From positions 140,166 through 204,165 of the forward strand of contig NZ_NOLJ01000007.1 of assembly GCF_002246015.1 (NCBI RefSeq): a stretch of 64,000 bases of DNA, read 5' to 3'. Below, in pieces: positions 36,582 to 46,738 of the stretch. The DNA is from Nostoc sp. 'Peltigera membranacea cyanobiont' 210A. Lineage in GTDB: Bacteria; Cyanobacteriota; Cyanobacteriia; Cyanobacteriales; Nostocaceae. A program made the position numbers and the translations under genes. Each line of letters starts with the position of its first letter. Position 1 is the first letter of the stretch. The notes under the pieces were generated by a model. That model did not search any database. It was not told where the DNA came from and worked only from the letters and a program-made list of their open reading frames with translations.

Positions 36582-37451
36582 ATGACAAATCAATTGAAAA
36601 CGGCTGCTTTGCTAGCTGCACTAAGTGGTCTTTTGATAGCAATTAGTTACTGGATAATTGGCGGTTCTAGTGGTTTGATTATCGGCATTGGCTTGGCAGC
36701 AGCAACAAACCTGTTTTCCTGGTATCAATCAGATAAAATTGCGCTAGCAGTATACCAAGCACAGCCGGTAAGTGAAAGGGAAGCACCAGGACTTTATCGG
36801 ATGGTGCAGAGATTGAGCGATCGCGCTAACATTCCTATGCCTAGAGTTTATATTGTTCCAAGCCAAGGCGCTAACGCCTTCGCAACAGGGCGCGATCCCG
36901 AACACGCTGCTGTGGCTGTCACTGAAGGTATTTTAAATATATTGCCAGACGATGAACTTGAAGGTGTTATCGCCCACGAGCTAACCCATATTATTAATCG
37001 TGACACCCTCACCCAAGCCGTTGCTGCTACTGTGGCTGGTGCGATCTCATTCTTAGCCCAAATGGTTAGTTACAGCCTATGGTTTGGCGGTGGTTCGCGA
37101 GATGACAACAGAGGTGGAAATCCAATAGGAGTTTTATTAACAGTCATGCTTGCACCTGTGGCTGCGACAATTATTCAGCTAGCTATTTCGCGCACACGAG
37201 AATTTTCTGCTGATGCAGGTTCTGCGAAATTAACTGGTAATCCCCGCGCCTTAGCTAGGGCATTGCAACGCTTAGAAGCCTCAGCAAAGCAAGTACCTTT
37301 AAATGCCAATCCAGCTTATGAGCCGTTATTAATTATTAATTCCATCTCTGGACAGTTTCTGGGTAACTTATTCTCCAGTCACCCTGCTACAGAAATGCGA
37401 GTTGCAGCATTACTAAAATTAGAGCAACAACTGCCAACAAAAGCTTATTAG
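36582..37451 (+). CDS. htpX: M48 family zinc metalloprotease HtpX
   Basis: HtpX is an inner-membrane protease for misfolded membrane proteins. The 289 residues begin with two close hydrophobic helices (about 8-46). The zinc motif is HELTH at 132-136, and the third ligand is likely the glutamate of RTREFSADAGSA near 210. Two further hydrophobic segments lie between them (about 145-165 and 180-200). The AGGAG site eight bases before the ATG is clear. The gene stands alone, 270 bases after chrB; I see nothing notable in that gap except a short imperfect hairpin at 36452. Confidence 0.96.
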   Translation: MTNQLKTAALLAALSGLLIAISYWIIGGSSGLIIGIGLAAATNLFSWYQSDKIALAVYQAQPVSEREAPGLYRMVQRLSDRANIPMPRVYIVPSQGANAFATGRDPEHAAVAVTEGILNILPDDELEGVIAHELTHIINRDTLTQAVAATVAGAISFLAQMVSYSLWFGGGSRDDNRGGNPIGVLLTVMLAPVAATIIQLAISRTREFSADAGSAKLTGNPRALARALQRLEASAKQVPLNANPAYEPLLIINSISGQFLGNLFSSHPATEMRVAALLKLEQQLPTKAY

Positions 37452-37829: not shown

Positions 37830-40800
37830 TTAGTTGCTAGTGAGACGCTGATATACTTCTGAAACTAGCCAATCTGACACCATCTTCTGAAAATCACGGT
37901 CATTCATGTAACGTGCAAAAATTGCCTCGTTTTGATCTACTCGCTCAACAAACAGAGAATCTAACATCTGATTGAAAAGCAAGGCGAATTTGTCAGCAGA
38001 GTTTACCTGTGCTGCTTGTTGTAATTCTTCGTAATTGGCAGCAGTCTCCACAAGTTGATCAAAAAACAATTGATCGGCTTGATGAAAATCAGTACCAAAA
38101 CGATTGTTGATAATGTCGATTAGCTGTGATAGTTTGACTGTATCCCCACGGACAATACCTGTGCCGACATCTTTTGGCCCATCTAGGGGACGGGCATTAC
38201 CTTTGCTTAACTCTATTGAGCCTTCACTAATTTTCTGGAGGCGGTAATACTCTAGCTGGATTTCGCTATCAAAATCGTACTGTACTTCATTCGGGCGGCG
38301 TGGCAGTTTCGATGATAGGTGACGCAAAAAAATGTAGAGGCGTTCTAAATCAGAGTCTTGGTAGGGAATTATCTGGCTCAAAAAAGCGTAAAGGTTACGA
38401 AATGCTGTCAGCTTTTTACGCCAAATTTTAGCTGCTTCTGGTTGATCGTGATCCAAAACGCGGAAGCGGTCAACGGCTGGGTCAAGTGCTGCATTCATCC
38501 CTTGATGGTCAGATATACTCTGACGCTGTTTCGGTTTAAAGTAAATTTCAGAAAAGCGTTCAACTTCCTCATTTAAATAGATTCCTAAAGCGTCTAGTTC
38601 GCTCTGGAGTTGGTAAAGTTGTTGAGAGTCTGCTTCTGCTCCTAACTCTGCGCCTTCGTAAAACTGCTGAAATGCTTGGCGAATTTCTTCGCGATCGTTA
38701 ATGAAGTCTAAGACAAATGTATCTTCTTTAAGTGGGTGAATGCGGTTGAGGCGAGAAAGGGTCTGTACTGCTTGAATACCCGCCAATCGCCTGTCAATAT
38801 ACATGGTGTGTAGCAAGGGTTGGTCAAAGCCTGTTTGATATTTTTCAGCTACAAGTAAAACCTGATACTCATTGGTAGCAAATCTTTCGGGCAATTCTTT
38901 CTCCCGAATACCTTTATTCATCTCCTGTTCGCTGTAAGTTTTATCTTGAATCTTGTCGTCTGTGACTACACCTGAAAAGGCTACCAGGGTTTTGATAGGA
39001 TACCCTTTTTCCTGGATGTATTTGTCGAAACTCTGTTTGTAGCGCACTGCATCTATGCGGGAGCTAGTTACTACCATTGCTTTGGCTTGACCACCGATTT
39101 TGTGGCGGGTAAAGGTGTTGAAGTGTTCCACCATTACTTCTGTCTTCTGGGCAATATTATGGGGGTGTAGGCGCATGAACCGAGCCAGGGAGCGGGCAGC
39201 ATTTTTGCGTTCTACGTTGGGGTCGTTTTTACCGGCTTTGATCAGGTTGAAGTAGACTTTATAGGTTGTGTAATTACGCAGGACATCGATGATAAAGCCT
39301 TCTTCTATTGCTTGACGCATAGTGTAGCGATGAAAAGGCTCTCCGCGATGACCAAAGAATTTTAGGGTTTCATGTTTTGGTGTGGCGGTAAATGCAAAGA
39401 AACTCAGGTTGGACTGATGAGAACGTTTGACTAAACTGCGGAAAAGTTCTTCTAGATTTTCTAGTCCTTCTTCCTGAGCGCGGTTACGTGCTTGGGCTTG
39501 CAACTCTTCGCCGCCAAGTACACCTTTTAACTCGGTGACTGTTTCGCCTGATTGTGAACTGTGTGCTTCATCAATGATCACGGCACAGCGACGGGTAGGT
39601 AGAATACCACTACTCTGCTCGTTACGTTCCTCTGCTAGTTTGATTAACTGGCGAGTCACAAAGGGAAATTTTTGGAGGGTCGTGATGATGATGGGAACAG
39701 CACTTTCCAACGCTTGCGCCAACTGTCGGGAATTATCGTCGATTTTCTCGACAACGCCCTGACGATGTTCAAATTGATAAATTGCGTCTTGTAATTGTTG
39801 GTCAAGTACGCGGCGATCGCTAATTACAATTACACTATCAAAAACACGACGGTTTTGGTCATTGTATAAAGAGGCAAGGCGATGAGTCAGCCAACCAATG
39901 GTGTTACTTTTACCGCTACCTGCTGAATGTTCAATGAGATAGTTGTGTCCTACACCTTCACTCCTTGCCGCATCTACCAGTAAACGCACAACTTGAAGTT
40001 GATGATAGCGGGGAAATATCATGGTTTCTTTTTTAAACCTGCGACCATCATCGTCTCGCTTCTCTTTTGTTTGGAGATGCAGAAATCGACACAACAGATC
40101 AAGTAGACTGTCGCGTTGTAAGACTTCTTCCCATAGGTAAGCAGTCCGGTAATTACGTCTCTGGGGGTCTAGTGGATTACCTGCCCCGCCATCATATCCT
40201 TTGTTAAAAGGCAAAAAGTGGGTAGCGTCTCCGGCTAGGCGTGTAGTCATCCATACTTCTTCGGTATCTACGGCGAAATGTACTAAGGTACGGCGTTTAA
40301 ACTCAAAGATAGTTTCCCTGGAGTCACGGTCTTGGCAGTATTGCTGTTTGGCATTTTCCACTGTTTGCCCTGTGAGTGGATTCTTTAGCTCTAGGGTGAC
40401 AAGTGGGATACCATTGAGACTAAGAGTAATGTCAAGCGATCGCTTTTTTTCTCGCTCACTGTATTGCAGTTGTCGGGTGATACCAACGCAGTTGGCAGCA
40501 TAACGGGTTTCTAAATCTGAGTTTAGTCCGTGGGCAGCTTTGAAGTAGGCAATACGCAGAGTTCGACCATAGCATTTGAATCCATGACGCAGAGTGTGTA
40601 GTGAGCCGTAAGTGTCCAGCCATTTACACAGGTCTGTCAGCACTTGCTCACTGGTTTTTTCTTTGTGGAGTGCTTCTAGTTTTTTCCATTCTTTGGATTG
40701 AGTTTGCTGGATAAATGCGATCGCTATATTGGGAAAAAGAGCGCGAGTGCGATCGAATTTATCTGTTACGTTGACATAGCCGTGAGTGAGAAGGTGATTT

Positions 40801-40859
40801 TCAATTACGTTCTCAAATGCAGTTTCGCTATGACGAAAGGAAGAAGAATTATCGCTCAT
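37830..40859 (-). CDS. hsdR: Type I restriction enzyme, R subunit HsdR
   Basis: HsdR translocates and cuts unmodified DNA as part of the HsdR2M2S complex. The 1009 residues hold an N-terminal PD-(D/E)xK nuclease: D143 in LDITLSLNG, then E157 and K159 in LELK. A superfamily 2 helicase follows, with Walker A SAGSGKSN (GSGKS at 314-318), the DEAH box in VIIDEAHSSQSG near 430, motif III FFAFTATP, and motif VI TLSRLNRIH. The C-terminal helical domain binds the methylase. Its ATG overlaps the stop of the HNH gene by four bases (ATGA), so the operon reads through the inserted pair. It looks intact. Confidence 0.97.
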   Translation of the reverse strand: MSDNSSSFRHSETAFENVIENHLLTHGYVNVTDKFDRTRALFPNIAIAFIQQTQSKEWKKLEALHKEKTSEQVLTDLCKWLDTYGSLHTLRHGFKCYGRTLRIAYFKAAHGLNSDLETRYAANCVGITRQLQYSEREKKRSLDITLSLNGIPLVTLELKNPLTGQTVENAKQQYCQDRDSRETIFEFKRRTLVHFAVDTEEVWMTTRLAGDATHFLPFNKGYDGGAGNPLDPQRRNYRTAYLWEEVLQRDSLLDLLCRFLHLQTKEKRDDDGRRFKKETMIFPRYHQLQVVRLLVDAARSEGVGHNYLIEHSAGSGKSNTIGWLTHRLASLYNDQNRRVFDSVIVISDRRVLDQQLQDAIYQFEHRQGVVEKIDDNSRQLAQALESAVPIIITTLQKFPFVTRQLIKLAEERNEQSSGILPTRRCAVIIDEAHSSQSGETVTELKGVLGGEELQAQARNRAQEEGLENLEELFRSLVKRSHQSNLSFFAFTATPKHETLKFFGHRGEPFHRYTMRQAIEEGFIIDVLRNYTTYKVYFNLIKAGKNDPNVERKNAARSLARFMRLHPHNIAQKTEVMVEHFNTFTRHKIGGQAKAMVVTSSRIDAVRYKQSFDKYIQEKGYPIKTLVAFSGVVTDDKIQDKTYSEQEMNKGIREKELPERFATNEYQVLLVAEKYQTGFDQPLLHTMYIDRRLAGIQAVQTLSRLNRIHPLKEDTFVLDFINDREEIRQAFQQFYEGAELGAEADSQQLYQLQSELDALGIYLNEEVERFSEIYFKPKQRQSISDHQGMNAALDPAVDRFRVLDHDQPEAAKIWRKKLTAFRNLYAFLSQIIPYQDSDLERLYIFLRHLSSKLPRRPNEVQYDFDSEIQLEYYRLQKISEGSIELSKGNARPLDGPKDVGTGIVRGDTVKLSQLIDIINNRFGTDFHQADQLFFDQLVETAANYEELQQAAQVNSADKFALLFNQMLDSLFVERVDQNEAIFARYMNDRDFQKMVSDWLVSEVYQRLTSN

Positions 40860-41611
40860 TGATGTGACTGTCTGTGAATGGCTTCTCTACGTCTGCGATT
40901 TTGTTCTGTTTTACGTAGAAGTTCCTGTGCTACTTGCTCGATCACAAAACAGAAATGTGGATAGCGTCCCTGTCTGTCTCGATGACTATAACCATTCTCT
41001 ACAATTGTGCGTAGTTTTGCTTCACTCAACTTTTTGTTTTCTGAAAAAAATACCTCGTTAATAGCCTCTCGACGCATTTCGATGAGAAGATCATGATCGA
41101 GCTCCAATTTTTTAATAGTTATATTAGCAGGACTACTTTTATTATTTTTTTTATTAGTATCTTGGATAGTTTTATCTCTATCATCAGCAGGTTTGATATG
41201 TCCTTCCATATCAAAGATGAATTTTGTTTCACACTGTCTGTCAAGCGGACTTATAAACGAATCAGCATCATACCAGTTATGTCTGGCTCTTGCCCCGAAT
41301 TGGCATTCTCCTTTAGGATAGGCTGCTAATAAATTATTGTAATTTACATCTTCATAGTTGCCTTCCTTTCTACAAAGGCTCTGTGGCTTGAAGTGTTCGA
41401 TATGTGATCTTTCCTCACTAATGCGGATGCCAGTATAACAACATAGCCATCCTTGCTCTTTTAGTAGATTGTATTGAACTAACCTTCTGATATCACTTGG
41501 TAAACCATTTTCATAACTGCAATTAATTCGCTTGCCATGATCATCAATAGGCGCGCTCTCGAACCATTTACATAATTCTTTTGGTTCAGAACCTTTAGCA
41601 ATATGCTTCAT
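40856..41611 (-). CDS. HNH endonuclease of a Septu-like pair (PtuB-like)
   Basis: The 251 residues match the HNH family paired with COG3950-type ATPases in Septu and some retrons. A CC..TG segment (C57-C58) precedes HIEHFKPQS (H70, H73) and NYNNLLAAYP (about 90-99), giving the H-N-N catalytic layout. 'CETKFIFDMEGHI' and 'TIKKLELDHDLLIEMRREAI' follow, as in family members. Its ATG comes directly after the TAA of the ATPase gene, with GGAGAG inside the end of that gene as ribosome binding site. It ends by overlapping hsdR. No disabling change is seen. Confidence 0.8.
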   Translation of the reverse strand: MKHIAKGSEPKELCKWFESAPIDDHGKRINCSYENGLPSDIRRLVQYNLLKEQGWLCCYTGIRISEERSHIEHFKPQSLCRKEGNYEDVNYNNLLAAYPKGECQFGARARHNWYDADSFISPLDRQCETKFIFDMEGHIKPADDRDKTIQDTNKKNNKSSPANITIKKLELDHDLLIEMRREAINEVFFSENKKLSEAKLRTIVENGYSHRDRQGRYPHFCFVIEQVAQELLRKTEQNRRRREAIHRQSHQ

Positions 41612-42814
41612 TTACTCTCCTAACAGCCGTATCCTATCGATTCGTGTTTGTAAACGTACTAATTCTGGAAATTCGCCAATTTGACAACGCATATCATCGA
41701 TCACATTAGTTGCTTCATCATACTCCTCGTTTTCAATCATGTCCGCAATGCGGCTTAGTGCCTGTTCAGTTGTGCTATCCCTTGTAGCAGCACCCATCAA
41801 GTAGCGTAACACCCAGTTACTATCCATACCTAGAGATTGGCCTGGTCGGAAAGGTTGCTGACCACTTTCCAGCAGAAGGATACTCTCTGCTGGCACTTCA
41901 CCCACTATTTGTGGGGAGTGTGTCGTAGCAATAAACTGGCATTTTGGAAATGTTTGGATTAGTTGGTCTACAATCGTGCGTTGCCAGCGTGGATGTAGAT
42001 GCAAATCAATTTCATCAATTAAGACAACAGCTTTACCATTCTCTAGTGGATCTTTTAGGTTAGGGTTAGCTTGAGAAAGTCGTCGTGCTAGGTCTAGTAC
42101 CAACGCCAACAGACCACGCTCACCATCTGAAAGTTGACTAACATCAATTGTCATTCCATCTTTGTCTAGGATTAATGTAGTCTTCGGTTTATCAACAGCA
42201 CGCAGATTAGTACACCAGTCCAAAAACCTTGTAACAACGTTTGTCATAACTTTCAGACGTTGCTGTGCTAACGCCGCGTCCTCACCTAAAAGAGTCTGCT
42301 GTACCAACCACCATTCGGCAAATTCCCGGAGACGTAGCATTCGATGAGTTAATGCCTCAGCAAAAGCAGCAGACTGATTACCCGCACTACTTTTCTCATT
42401 CAGCACTTTTTCAATAGGTACAGAGCGTCGTGTAGAAAAATAGACTACAAGTGGTTGCTCATCATCACTTTTGAGAGGTTCGAGAATATTCTTGTTATCC
42501 GGCTTGAACTCAACCTTATGGTTTTTACCCCTGGTTACATTACAGACGAAAGGAATGTCAAACGCCTGAAATTTAAGGTCAACAGCAAGTTGATCGCGCC
42601 CCACCATAATGTCATCAACTTCAAAGTTGAGGCGTTTATCTTGACAGGCAGTAAAGTTGGGTAACACTCTTGACAGTACAATCCGCAAGGCATCAAGTAC
42701 ACTAGATTTGCCTACACCGTTGATACCGACGAGTAGATTCATACCTGGTTGGAACTCAAACGTTGCTTGCTCGAAAGAACGAAAATCAGTAAGTGTCAGA
42801 GACTTAAGTTGCAT
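41612..42814 (-). CDS. AAA ATPase of a Septu-like pair (PtuA-like, COG3950 type)
   Basis: The 400 residues have Walker A GINGVGKSS at 30-38 after the strand pair SLTLTDFRSFEQATFEFQP, the signature LSDGE at 228-232, Walker B VVLIDEID at 263-270 followed by LHLHPRW, and the switch THS at 298-300. This arrangement, with a short helical insertion (about 135-205), is that of COG3950 ATPases, which pair with HNH nucleases in Septu. The gene is immediately followed by the HNH gene. Its start is 185 bases after hsdS; that gap carries an hsdS tail remnant. Confidence 0.82.
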   Translation of the reverse strand: MQLKSLTLTDFRSFEQATFEFQPGMNLLVGINGVGKSSVLDALRIVLSRVLPNFTACQDKRLNFEVDDIMVGRDQLAVDLKFQAFDIPFVCNVTRGKNHKVEFKPDNKNILEPLKSDDEQPLVVYFSTRRSVPIEKVLNEKSSAGNQSAAFAEALTHRMLRLREFAEWWLVQQTLLGEDAALAQQRLKVMTNVVTRFLDWCTNLRAVDKPKTTLILDKDGMTIDVSQLSDGERGLLALVLDLARRLSQANPNLKDPLENGKAVVLIDEIDLHLHPRWQRTIVDQLIQTFPKCQFIATTHSPQIVGEVPAESILLLESGQQPFRPGQSLGMDSNWVLRYLMGAATRDSTTEQALSRIADMIENEEYDEATNVIDDMRCQIGEFPELVRLQTRIDRIRLLGE

Positions 42815-42834
42815 TTTAGACTACTGTTACAGTA

Positions 42835-42960
42835 AACTGTCCAGTAATTGCTGCTATAATTTGTGCAGCAAAACGCTGAAGCTAATAGGTTATAGCTCAT
42901 GTTTGTATAAGGTATCAATTTTATTGTTTCTTTCTTCAAAAATTGATACATTTAGTGAGG
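42835..42960 (-). pseudogene. Remnant of an hsdS 3' end
   Basis: The gap between hsdS and the ATPase gene is a degraded copy of the last 120 bases of hsdS. Read on the minus strand it gives VSIFEERNNKIDTLYKHEL and, after frameshifts, AAQIIAAITGQF. These align with 'VEEKTSKIDKLSHAAV' and 'RRAALITATVTGQI' at the HsdS C-terminus (43000-43150). The copy is broken by at least two stops or shifts. Confidence 0.65.
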
Positions 42961-42999
42961 TGAAAATAAAAATTTACTTACTAATATTGACTAAGTACA

Positions 43000-44304
43000 T
43001 TATCCAGTCATTTTAATTTGTCCGGTGACTGTTGCTGTAATCAATGCAGCGCGACGCTCATGTAAATAGTCGATAGTCATTACAGCAGCATGAGATAGTT
43101 TATCAATTTTACTTGTTTTTTCTTCAACAAATGAAACAATCTTTATTTGTTCTTCCATTAGAGGTACAGGAAACAATAGCTCACGAATATCACTTTGAGC
43201 GATATTGTTTGCAAGCCCTTCTGCACCACTTACAAACTGTAGAATTTGCTGTCGAACAATGAATGATCCCATTGTGATGACAAAAAACTTAGCATCACAA
43301 ATTTCAGTATTAAGCTTAAGCCTAAAAATTTTGTCTGAAAGCAACAATCTCTCACTAGGTTGATTTTGTACAAGCACTACTGAACCTATCAAGTCTTTAG
43401 AGCCACTGGCACGAGACATCAGAATATCATCTTTTTTTACCTCAAGTTCTAAAGGTGGCTCAATTTCAGGAGGCAGAGTTTTGTTTTCTTGAGGATTGAA
43501 AATACCACCATTGACACATCCTGTTTTCAATACTCCCCACTCTCTTTCCTGTGCTGGAAAGTTATAACACTGTGGTGAAAAGCCAGTATCAATGCCAAAT
43601 ATCAAAAACTTTATTCTTTTAACATTCCAATGTTGTGGAATTTTCCCTAACCACTCAAAACCTGAATTCCACAAGGGAATAGTGGGATTTAAACCATGAG
43701 TAACAGCATCAGTGATAAGAGCGCGGCGCTTTTCCGTCAGTAAATCAAGCAGACGCTCTTTATCTGAGATGAGTGTGTCTATTTTGGCAGTTTCACGATC
43801 AAGGTAATTTGCGATCGCACGTTGTTCAAAGAGTGGGGGTAGCGGAATTAAAAGATTACCAATTGTATTCCAATCAGCACGAGGCATTTTGGCTCCAAAT
43901 GTCTCTGCATTGACAAGGTTAATAAACTCAGGAGTTAACAATACCTGAAGAAGAAAACGTTCAAACAAAAGCTCACTAGGCTTCAGGACTAGTAGTTCAG
44001 TTGTGCAAATACCGTATTCTTGTGCAAGATGCGCTTTAGCAAGGTATGGGCGAAGCTTACCAAATAGAATATTACCTGGCTCAAAGCAACTCACTGCACT
44101 TTCTTTTTCATCTTCGTCATTAGATGTGTTTTCGCTCGTTGCGGACTTAAGTAATCTTCCTGTCCACGGCTCGATGTTTTCTAACCCAAGATAATTTCCG
44201 TCTATAGAACTTCCATTAGCCCGAAGTGTTTTCAATTCAACAACTGTTTTGAGTCTCACCGCTTTCCATCTCTCAGGCAGGTGTTGTAACCATAACTTTG
44301 TCAC
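43000..44304 (-). CDS. hsdS: Type I restriction enzyme, specificity subunit HsdS
   Basis: HsdS determines the bipartite DNA target for methylation and restriction. The 434 residues contain two target-recognition domains (about 1-150 and 215-375), each closed by a conserved coiled-coil helix: 'PLPPLFEQRAIANYLDRETAKIDTLI' at about 155-180, and 'PLMEEQIKIVSFVEEKTSKIDKL' at about 385-410. It starts at a GTG that overlaps the hsdM stop (GTGA), so the two are translationally coupled. The recognition sequence cannot be predicted by eye. Confidence 0.93.
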   Translation of the reverse strand: MTKLWLQHLPERWKAVRLKTVVELKTLRANGSSIDGNYLGLENIEPWTGRLLKSATSENTSNDEDEKESAVSCFEPGNILFGKLRPYLAKAHLAQEYGICTTELLVLKPSELLFERFLLQVLLTPEFINLVNAETFGAKMPRADWNTIGNLLIPLPPLFEQRAIANYLDRETAKIDTLISDKERLLDLLTEKRRALITDAVTHGLNPTIPLWNSGFEWLGKIPQHWNVKRIKFLIFGIDTGFSPQCYNFPAQEREWGVLKTGCVNGGIFNPQENKTLPPEIEPPLELEVKKDDILMSRASGSKDLIGSVVLVQNQPSERLLLSDKIFRLKLNTEICDAKFFVITMGSFIVRQQILQFVSGAEGLANNIAQSDIRELLFPVPLMEEQIKIVSFVEEKTSKIDKLSHAAVMTIDYLHERRAALITATVTGQIKMTG

Positions 44305-46322
44305 ATTATCACCTCATGCAGCAAACGCATAAACTCTTCTTCCATGCGTTTAATGTCAGCATCAATTTCAGCTAAAGGTCGCGGAGGAGTGTATTTATAA
44401 AAATGCCGATTAAAATTAATCTCATAAGCACTGCGAATTTTATCACCGTCTGCCCACGCATCATTTACGTGCGGCTCAACCTCACGGTGAAAATAGCCCA
44501 CAATTTCATCTGTCAAACGCACATTTTCAAAATCCCGTAGTTGCGTATCTGGCTCATACATAAGCTCTACCTTGCCTTTAGCATCCCGGAACCAACCCCA
44601 AACACGCGCATTAGGTTCGTCAATCACTTTACGTTGCTTGAGAATAACCCCCTCGGCTTCTGGATTACGCTCTGTAAAAACATCCCGAAACAGCTTATTT
44701 TCTGTCTTTTTCCACTTGCTACCACGCCGCTTAATTAAAGCATTCATCAGCTTGTCAAACTCACTCCAATTAGGACGGGGTTCTCTTCCTAATTCTCTAT
44801 CTATCGCTTGCACATCATCTAATAAGTGAGGCACAGCATCTAAAAATCGGCTTTTGCGTTCTACATCCATTTGGTAGAGCAAACGTAGCGGTCTTTCAAT
44901 GGGAACGCGATTATAACCAAAGTCTTCATTATCAAAAATCTTACTTGTTTCACTTTCTACAAACTCACCATAGTCCCGCACCACTGCGGCGATATCTTCT
45001 TCACCCATATAGCGGCGTTTGTCACCTAAACTACGGCGCATAGGTTGCCAGCGAGTGCGAGAGTCTATTAATTGAATCTTTCCTTTGCGGTGTCGCTGCT
45101 TGCGATTGGTAACAATCCAAATATAAGTACTAATACCAGTATTATAAAACATTTGCTCTGGCAGGGCTATAATCGCTTCCAACCAGTCATTTTCAATCAC
45201 CCATTTACGGATTTCACTTTCACCACTACCCGCACCACCAGTAAACAACGGTGAACCATTAAAAACGATCGCCAAACGTGAGCCATTTTTCCCTGCTTCA
45301 GGTTGATACGGCTCAAACTTACTAATCATGTGCTGTAAGAATAGCAACGAGCCATCATTAACTCGCGGCGTACCTGCGCCAAACCTACCAGCGAAACCTA
45401 ACTTTTCGTGTTCGCGTTGCACCTCTTTTTGTTGCCTTTTCCAGTCCACACCAAACGGGGGATTAGCAAGGAAATAATCAAATTTATCATTCTCATATTG
45501 GTCATTAATCAGCGAATCACCGTAACGAATATCACTGTTATCATTACTTTTCAGCAACAAATCTGAGGCAGCCATAGCATAAGCACGGGGGTTAAAATCC
45601 TGCCCAAATACCCACAATTTTGCAGTTGCATGGTTTTCGCGTAAATAATTCTGTGCCTCAGCCAGCATTCCACCAGTACCACAGGTAGGGTCAAGCATTT
45701 TGCGAATGATCCCCGGTTTAGTCAAGATATCGTCATCGGGATCAAACAAAATATCTACCATCAAACGGATCACTTCTCGCGGCGTAAAGTGATCGCCTGC
45801 TGTTTCATTAGCTGCTTCATTAAATCTGCGGATTAAATCCTCAAACAGCAATCCCATATCGATGTTATCCAAGTCATCAGGATGCAGGTTAACATCACAA
45901 AATTTAGAAACAACAAGATAGAGAATATTTGCTTCACGCATTTTCTCAATTTCAGCAGTAAACTCAAATCGCTCGAAAATATCGTAAACGTTTTTTGAGA
46001 AGCTTTTAATGTAGCTGATGAGATGTTGATCTATATTGTCGGGATCACCTTTAAGCTGCTCAAAATCAAGTTGCGATCGATTATGAAAACGTTGCCCTGC
46101 TACTTTATTCAGCATTGCGTCTAGGGCATCATCCTTAAATGTATCTTTCCTCTTGTAATATTCCTTTAGTACCTGCGGTTTAGTTGGCGCAAGTACACAA
46201 TCAAAGCGACGCAGCACCGTCATTGGTAACATTACACGCTCGTACTGCGGTGGACGGTAAGGCCCCCGTAATAAGTCAGCAATTTGCCAAATGAAGTTGG
46301 AGAGTTGGTGATGGTCTGCCAT
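44301..46322 (-). CDS. hsdM: Type I restriction enzyme, methylase subunit HsdM
   Basis: HsdM is the N6-adenine DNA methyltransferase of the type I system. The 673 residues have an N-terminal HsdM helical domain (about 1-165), the AdoMet motif I DPTCGTGG at 211-218, and the catalytic motif IV NPPF at 287-290. The long C-terminal part (about 480-673) includes 'YKYTPPRPLAEIDADIKRME', typical of this larger HsdM subfamily. It is the first gene of the hsdM-hsdS-ATPase-HNH-hsdR operon. The promoter should lie in the 614-base gap upstream. Confidence 0.96.
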   Translation of the reverse strand: MADHHQLSNFIWQIADLLRGPYRPPQYERVMLPMTVLRRFDCVLAPTKPQVLKEYYKRKDTFKDDALDAMLNKVAGQRFHNRSQLDFEQLKGDPDNIDQHLISYIKSFSKNVYDIFERFEFTAEIEKMREANILYLVVSKFCDVNLHPDDLDNIDMGLLFEDLIRRFNEAANETAGDHFTPREVIRLMVDILFDPDDDILTKPGIIRKMLDPTCGTGGMLAEAQNYLRENHATAKLWVFGQDFNPRAYAMAASDLLLKSNDNSDIRYGDSLINDQYENDKFDYFLANPPFGVDWKRQQKEVQREHEKLGFAGRFGAGTPRVNDGSLLFLQHMISKFEPYQPEAGKNGSRLAIVFNGSPLFTGGAGSGESEIRKWVIENDWLEAIIALPEQMFYNTGISTYIWIVTNRKQRHRKGKIQLIDSRTRWQPMRRSLGDKRRYMGEEDIAAVVRDYGEFVESETSKIFDNEDFGYNRVPIERPLRLLYQMDVERKSRFLDAVPHLLDDVQAIDRELGREPRPNWSEFDKLMNALIKRRGSKWKKTENKLFRDVFTERNPEAEGVILKQRKVIDEPNARVWGWFRDAKGKVELMYEPDTQLRDFENVRLTDEIVGYFHREVEPHVNDAWADGDKIRSAYEINFNRHFYKYTPPRPLAEIDADIKRMEEEFMRLLHEVIM

Positions 46323-46588
46323 GTGTCTCTATATCGATCTGCTTATTATATCTACATTTCGGGGCGCAGAAAGATAGTTTTACAGCAAACCTGGGAGTTT
46401 TAGGAAGTATGACTATTCTTTAGGAGAGCAGGAGAGCGATCGCTAAAAACCAAATTTGTATTTTTTCATCTCTTTTTTCTTCGATATAGTTTTTCGCTGC
46501 GTTAGTTTTCTGAATTACGGTTCTGTTCTAAGCGACTTGCGATGAGATGTAGTCAAGCAGTTTCCTCATAAAAATTAATCTTGTCTCA

Positions 46589-46738
46589 CGGAAAGCTTAT
46601 GCTTCCAATTTAGACTTTCGGAAATATTATGCTTCCAATTTTTCAATCAGGGGTGCGATCGCCTAACGGGGAAATACTGGTTACAGCACTCCTGACGGAA
46701 AAGTTATGCTTCCAGTCAGGGAAATATTATGGTTCCAG
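46589..46738. repeat. Five dispersed GGAA-TTATGC-TTCC palindromic units
   Basis: Units CGGAAAGCTTATGCTTCCAA (46589), CGGAAATATTATGCTTCCAA (46619), CGGAAAAGTTATGCTTCCAG (46696) and GGGAAATATTATGGTTCCAG (46719) share GGAA...TTCC arms, with a fifth, decayed unit at 46667. They lie between the divergent hsdM operon and the clc gene, where operators would be expected. The rest of the 46323-46935 gap has the GATGCCTACGGCGGGC repeat (46743-46772) and no gene. Confidence 0.65.

Follow-up and report, generated by a model that had tools for sequence, protein, structure and literature searches.

A Septu pair inside a type I restriction operon

A type I restriction operon in the cyanobacterium Nostoc sp. 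'Peltigera membranacea cyanobiont' 210A carries a Septu pair, ptuA and ptuB, between its specificity gene hsdS and its restriction gene hsdR. The operon is located on the minus strand of a 64,000-nt stretch of contig NZ_NOLJ01000007.1 (positions 140,166 to 204,165; RefSeq assembly GCF_002246015.1), termed the window in the following, whose own numbering is used throughout. Judging from related operons, the hsdS–hsdR interval is an exchangeable slot with ptuAB as one of its occupants and unrelated toxin-like modules as others, and the arrangement, being common to distantly related bacteria, suggests a built-in, exchangeable second line of defence.

The ptuA gene (41612–42814) encodes a P-loop ATPase of 400 aa that was assigned to the PtuA type by profile (PADLOC PtuA1, 5.8e-123) and by fold (template modeling (TM) score 0.81–0.82 to 9e90 and 8eea_D). 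Its motifs GINGVGKS, LSDGE, LIDEID and THS are intact; the N-terminus also gives weak matches to Rad50/RecF-type models. The 251-aa product of ptuB (40856–41611) belongs to the HNH-type nucleases by profile (TIGR02646 over cut-off) and fold: the motifs CCYTG and HIEH are intact, and H70, E72 and H73 are invariant or nearly so in 70 sequences. By these features the pair is a Septu PtuA ATPase with a PtuB HNH-type nuclease, the nuclease role being predicted, and the reading of an initial annotation of this DNA, that an ATPase next to an HNH gene is the Septu arrangement, is borne out; the label COG3950 for the ATPase is that annotation's own. Septu type I (E. coli complex 8EEA) has the same PtuA and PtuB profiles and folds in neighbouring genes; the window pair differs in lying within an hsd operon and in the length of PtuA (465 aa in E. 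coli chain 8ee4). The PtuA and PtuB folds are also common to the retrons Ec78/Eco7 and Ec83 (Septu type II), where PtuAB are effectors of another system. We rejected a retron or Septu type II assignment: no reverse transcriptase model was found in the five proteins of the operon (Pfam, NCBIfam), and the NCBIfam Ec78 equivalog cut-offs were missed by PtuA (244 vs 500 bits) and PtuB (70.7 vs 150). The Pfam and NCBIfam matches listed for PtuA include no PrrC-type model; for PADLOC, 25 of 165 matches were listed. The same genome contains a second, free-standing ptuA–ptuB pair (G000:C23, L065 6768–8761), whose PtuA is 37% identical to the nested one; no hsd genes were found around it in the 16 kb examined.

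The flanking genes specify a type I restriction-modification system. hsdM (44301–46322) encodes a methyltransferase subunit of 673 aa (PADLOC MTase_I, 3.5e-265; N6_Mtase and HsdM_N over the Pfam cut-off), hsdS (43000–44304, GTG start) a specificity subunit of 434 aa (Specificity_I, 6.4e-106; Methylase_S over cut-off) and hsdR (37830–40859) a restriction/translocase subunit of 1009 aa (REase_I, 2.1e-42; HSDR_N, SWI2_SNF2 and T1R_D3-like over cut-off). HsdS was checked by profiles only; motifs were sought in HsdM, HsdR, PtuA and PtuB and were found, including the methylase, nuclease and translocase motifs of type I subunits, and the plain word 'SAT' was absent from HsdR in this search. Scores against the NCBIfam models for hsdM and hsdR stay under the respective cut-offs, so the window enzyme is not of the types behind those models.

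All five frames are open from 37830 to 46322. The initial annotation had given the order hsdM–hsdS–ATPase–HNH–hsdR on one strand, and the open reading frames (ORFs) agree: hsdM and hsdS overlap by 4 nt, the ATG of ptuB directly follows the stop of ptuA in the same frame, and ptuB and hsdR overlap by 4 nt, so that three of the four junctions touch or overlap. The fourth had been omitted from that account. Here a gap of 185 nt (42815–42999) separates hsdS and ptuA, and the pair is therefore closely joined only on its downstream side. The earlier claim that the pair is built into the operon is supported by the recurrence of the gene order and by a gap free of promoter-like matches, both described below.

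The hsdS–hsdR interval is an exchangeable slot

Loci found through PtuA cannot show what the operon usually carries; searches were therefore made with HsdR. They covered 59 genomes, 386 cyanobacteria, the class to which G430 belongs (385 genomes), the phyla of G432 (350) and G431 (297), and viral contigs (7 loci). As close relatives we defined loci with an HsdR identity of at least 65%: 26 loci, not counting the window and the PtuA-found centres L070, L078 and L083. The slot was readable in 22 of them, the unreadable ones being G009, G1275, G1302 and G1396. A PtuA-type ATPase with an HNH gene occupies it in half of these (11/22), either as ptuAB (nine loci: G005, G121, G530, G694, G538, G1084, G1435, L189 and L190) or as a PtuA-like ATPase accompanied by an HNH gene of PF01844 (G240 and G1126). 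An IrrE/Peptidase_M78-type protein is found in nine others (G938, G906, G1018, G1310, G1369, G1373, G1240, G1401 and G1351), assigned by a custom profile in G1373 and G1351; a DUF4411 gene stands beside it in G1310 and G1373, and the G1369 slot additionally contains AAA_21 and a DUF4276-like gene. G1282 carries an AAA_21–DUF4276 pair after a shorter M78 relative, at a place where no hsdS was found, and the slot of G1094 is empty. A module other than the PtuA-type ATPase with HNH gene is present in 10 of the 22 loci. G1373 starts inside the slot, and the reading of G005 rests on two contigs sharing 55 bp. It is this variety of occupants in close relatives from which we conclude that the interval is exchangeable.

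On the HsdR tree the HsdR-found and PtuA-found loci form one clade (100*, 44 rows), along which the slot occupant changes at least seven times, with both PtuA kinds counted as one and the outgroup and G009 excluded; L078 (ptuAB) and L222 (M78) are starred sisters. When ptuAB was scored against everything else, 10 changes were counted vs a shuffled mean of 14.7, and 2 of 500 shuffles were as low. Among more distant HsdR relatives L203 and L204 have plain M-S-R operons. Other distant hsdS–hsdR intervals contain a YhcG nuclease, zeta-toxin-like, DarT and macro-domain genes, PIN, TIR, Uma2, HNH, a transposase and proteins without Pfam match; in the first set 18 of the 71 unmatched ORFs listed, picked by size and place, were scanned.

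Two side observations concern these occupants. In this operon clade the other frequent occupant is the IrrE/Peptidase_M78-type protein, present in L218, L220 and seven further loci. An AAA_21 ATPase with a DUF4276 gene, another ATPase-plus-partner pair, is located near hsdR in L223 (5175–6937) and L219 (6535–8340), the DUF4276 match of L219 being slightly under the cut-off.

Pair alleles and the PtuA tail

Pair alleles differ sharply between near-identical hsdM/hsdR backbones. In G005, HsdM and HsdR are 97% identical to the window proteins, with PtuA at 54%, PtuB at 33% and HsdS at 32%. Homology in blastn stops near 40818–40826, just inside hsdR, and restarts at 44301, the end of hsdM, with patches of 495 nt (73%, in ptuA) and of 144 nt (90%) and 49 nt (84%, both in hsdS) in between. 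The corresponding identities for G121 are 88% (HsdM), 90% (HsdR), 54% (PtuA), 35% (PtuB) and 59% (HsdS). In G009 the DNA identity of hsdM/hsdR is about 96%, and 852 nt of hsdS are 97.8% identical.

Identity correlations were computed over 20 loci with all five genes. Correlation was high for HsdM–HsdR (rho 0.85) and lower for PtuA–PtuB (rho 0.47). A candidate unit of hsdS and ptuA inherited together was not supported, with a rho of 0.21 that lies below the permutation maximum of 0.36. Within PtuA the coupling to PtuB is uneven: residues 311–400 (41612–41884 including the stop; a helical tail) correlate with PtuB at rho 0.57, a value that stays at 0.57 with HsdR held constant, and the four other segments, which make up the P-loop ATPase body (residues 1–310, 41885–42814), give rho 0.21–0.29, and at most 0.17 with HsdR held constant. 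For 25 nested rows (L151 dropped) we obtained 0.59 for the tail, 0.24 for the body and 0.29 for the body given the tail; the corresponding values for 55 of 64 free pairs were 0.76, 0.58 and 0.08. Since tail and PtuB are coupled in nested and free pairs, this coupling is general. Judged by these values, the loose tie between PtuA body and PtuB is the nested pattern, although the body is not wholly free of PtuB. Individual pairs of loci illustrate both directions: L086 and L149 are 72% identical in the tail and 75% in PtuB, with body segments at 20–61%, and L075 and L149 have body segments at 48–71%, with the tail at 20% and PtuB at 26%. In the PtuA structure model the prediction is weak at 321–350 and helices span 332–399. 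Taken together, the last ∼90 residues of PtuA are probably the dock for PtuB. From the coupling one can predict, in a testable way, where on PtuA the nuclease docks; it may also account in part for the different targets reported for PtuAB, which are tRNA in two cases and DNA in a third.

In alignment A1 the sequences P0006, P0007, P0012 and P0098 have near-identical PtuA bodies and very different last ∼80 residues; these divergent ends are the first sign of tail exchange.

Distribution and phylogeny of the nested pair

The genome contigs were scanned with a PtuA profile, and the ORFs of the best 80 loci were then scanned with profiles made from the window proteins. The full order M-S-A-B-R was found in 18 of them (the PtuA of one, L072, is identical to that of L150) and part of it in four more: L081, L089 and L100, each cut short by the end of its contig, and L073. 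By record title, the loci with the five genes in order come from Cyanobacteriota, Chloroflexota, Pseudomonadota, Acidobacteriota, Verrucomicrobiota and Bacteroidota. The order is not due to chance, because it recurs in six phyla, and for the same reason we rejected a random strain-specific insertion; such an insertion with its own promoter, which the initial annotation had named as the finding that would speak against it, was not seen, as the gap also lacks a promoter-like site. Junctions were compared in 19 full loci (17 of the 18, with L072 represented by L150, plus L149 and L150), using first possible starts, so that some overlaps are overstated: the hsdS–ptuA distance is at most 15 nt in 16 of the 19 and the ptuB–hsdR distance at most 9 nt in 16 of the 19, overlaps included, and L078, L083 and L092 have a 4-nt overlap at every one of the four junctions. 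Among 72,556 plasmid records four match PtuA at E 1e-40, all from Ketogulonicigenium; the one examined has the five genes in order and is typed as conjugative. In cyanobacteria the system, nested or free, is rare: 5 of 386 genomes have a PtuA match at E 1e-60, two of them nested (the window and G121) and three free. The closest cyanobacterial PtuA copy among the matches listed, that of G036 (69%), begins at a contig end.

The PtuA tree comprises 91 rows (27 nested and 64 free), was rooted at the midpoint and excludes ORFs under 330 aa as well as the truncated G036 copy. The nested/free label changes three times on it vs 23.6 times in the shuffled mean, and none of 500 shuffles was as low. One group contains 22 nested rows (support 87, not starred), with L087 loosely placed beside it, and another contains 57 free rows (99*). 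A second branch holds L089, L100, L126 and the long-branched L151 together with seven free pairs. No hsd genes were found by profile around these seven, so the L089/L100/L126 branch is mixed, and more than one entry of PtuA into hsd operons is possible from this topology. Residues specific to nested PtuA were found at ten positions, which are scattered and form no clear surface.

Several loci depart from the common arrangement. On a Treponema contig (L129, 9971–13485) ptuA–ptuB lies ∼24 nt upstream of hsdM instead of between hsdS and hsdR. The nested operon of Polaromonas (L087, 6809–8758) has a 649-aa ORF between hsdM and hsdS, and long hsdM–hsdS gaps are also present in L100 and L126. In L154 (5121–7958) hsdS is split by a 476-aa ORF on the minus strand, which is probably an insertion. 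The hsdR relatives G003:C213, G019:C1, G101:C158 and G411:C40 each contain one in-frame stop in the aligned stretch, which may mean that the gene has decayed, that the sequence contains an error or that the match ends there.

Proposed role of the nested pair

From papers on PrrC and Septu together with the slot pattern we infer that PtuAB is a second-line nuclease expressed with restriction, a proposal to which we give an even chance. One promoter before hsdM would drive all five genes, and PtuA would keep PtuB inactive; an infection that restriction does not stop would release PtuB, which would cut tRNA or DNA and in this way abort the infection. With less certainty, the PtuA body may sense the state of the restriction complex, comparable to PrrC, which EcoprrI keeps silent and the phage anti-restriction peptide Stp sets free. 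Such a PrrC-like guard, freed upon restriction failure, would be the boldest mechanism. The initial annotation had likewise proposed layered defence through joint expression, in which Septu may act once restriction is inhibited; PrrC offers a precedent for this. According to parts of PMC2610378, PMC3874165 and PMC12707154, PrrC is a nuclease for tRNA-Lys that the linked type IC enzyme keeps silent and that a phage anti-restriction factor activates. For PtuAB, cleavage of tRNA-Tyr is described for retron-Eco7 and Septu EcB88 (parts of PMC11555353 and PMC13096335), nicked DNA being the target reported for a different Septu of E. coli (PMC11555353, in part). A more far-reaching version, which we advance tentatively and with low confidence, is that in a branch of type I restriction enzymes the slot could be a built-in warhead port for interchangeable abortive effectors: in the Septu case the PtuA body would be the constant sensor of restriction failure and the tail with PtuB the swappable warhead, making the operon a two-protein counterpart of EcoprrI–PrrC from another nuclease family. 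If PtuAB does guard restriction, recruitment of an abortive nuclease into type I operons, as with PrrC, has happened more than once, and the slot would be a hunting ground for new effectors, as several of the genes it contains in relatives have no Pfam match.

Several observations weigh against the proposed role. The identity of PtuA follows that of HsdR only with rho 0.48 vs 0.85 for HsdM–HsdR. Most of the best PtuA loci (58/80) lie outside this arrangement, some of them on short contigs; for L073, which has M-S-A-B, no hsdR was found in about 9 kb, the 9 kb downstream of ptuB at the G036 copy (L076) likewise lack one, and no ptuB stands beside hsdR in G009, although both contigs end within the interval. 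In the window itself 185 nt separate hsdS and ptuA. Finally, that quite different modules fit the slot would suit shared expression as well as contact.

Three other explanations were considered. The pair and the restriction enzyme may merely share a promoter and act independently, with PtuAB responding to its own phage trigger and the operon setting dose and joint travel. The abundance of free-standing PtuAB of the same family, including the free pair of the window genome, and the moderate PtuA–HsdR correlation favour this view, as does phage SSB, which a review gives as the trigger for Septu next to listing DNA cleavage (part of PMC12904381). The grouping of nested PtuA on the tree goes beyond free mixing, although joint transfer may also explain it, and we consider co-expression alone possible though rather unlikely. 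A recombination slot or addiction module, in which the flank of the often exchanged hsdS collects passing defence or toxin genes and the retained ones lend stability to the operon on mobile DNA without having to act with restriction, would fit the homology break of G005 and its resumption at hsdM, the decayed hsdS end before ptuA described below, the transposase ORF within the L166 interval, the conjugative plasmid and the description of the hsdS–hsdR site as a potential hotspot (PMC12255303, in part). Against it, the genes of most full loci share one strand and are tightly joined, and the slot is empty in just one of 22 readable close relatives; we consider this explanation improbable. Least credible, and in our view very improbable, is a role in DNA-end processing, where HsdR would cut phage DNA and PtuAB nick or degrade the products: the weak Rad50/RecF-type matches of PtuA and the Septu targeting nicked DNA agree with it, but the two relatives cutting tRNA-Tyr do not, and the IrrE-type peptidase, the other common slot occupant, would not process DNA.

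Relation to known embedded systems

The prrC gene of EcoprrI is located between hsdS and hsdR. The window operon resembles it in having a nuclease gene embedded in an hsd operon, and differs in that PrrC is one protein, a tRNA-Lys anticodon nuclease, whereas PtuAB consists of two proteins from a different nuclease family. In parts of PMC2610378 and PMC3874165 prrC is described as the gene of a latent ATPase-type nuclease lying within a type I operon. Embedding in the hsdS–hsdR slot has already been published for DarTG2, and parts of the same paper place an ATPase/RNA-binding pair there and call the site a possible hotspot (PMC12255303). The RptR-RMS-DarTG2-M48 island of enteropathogenic E. coli described there thus shares a second defence module between hsdS and hsdR with the window, its module being a toxin-antitoxin system, unlike PtuAB. 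The rlo genes of Campylobacter are likewise extra genes between hsdR and hsdS, and PtuAB in a type I operon is not among the features reported in the portion concerned (PMC5183652). Septu itself is embedded in or beside another system in the case of Hma (parts of PMC12255303 and PMC8565338); a PADLOC variant survey lists Septu with reverse transcriptase and with Hma, and restriction-modification is unmentioned in the portions concerned (PMC8565338). A preprint on embedded systems (Payne et al. 2024), the likeliest place for an earlier report, is cited in PMC12255303. The titles and abstract openings listed in literature searches name neither Septu inside a type I operon nor exchange of the PtuA tail; the novelty of Septu in this slot is not established.

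The hsdS–ptuA gap and the upstream region

Within the gap, 42816–42881 may represent the decayed 3′ end of an hsdS, ending 1 nt short of the ptuA ATG; a similar remnant is present in G121. Read in this way, it suggests that ptuA once stood one base after a different hsdS. A consensus scan of the minus strand of 42815–42999 gave no sigma-70-like promoter and no terminator-like match; in the 6-kb region scanned, 10 promoter-like matches compare with a shuffle mean of 14.0. We therefore rejected a promoter of its own for ptuAB as far as consensus matches in the gap are concerned; promoters of other types may still lie there. Upstream of hsdM a candidate −10 element TATAAT (46345–46350, minus strand) was spotted by eye and is absent from the list of the consensus scan; the word sits at the equivalent place in G009 and G121.

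An M48/HtpX-like gene at 36582–37451, considered as an island member in analogy to PMC12255303, was rejected because it has no relative at the other loci compared. Four copies of the near-palindrome GGAANCATAANNTTTCC are located at 46590–46736, 268–414 nt before hsdM, where shuffles predict 0.06 in the window; just one further exact copy exists in the 8.3-Mb genome. The four copies are a possible operator. Conservation of such an operator was rejected: G005 and G121 each show a single copy, which carries two mismatches, and there is none in G009, whose upstream piece is short.

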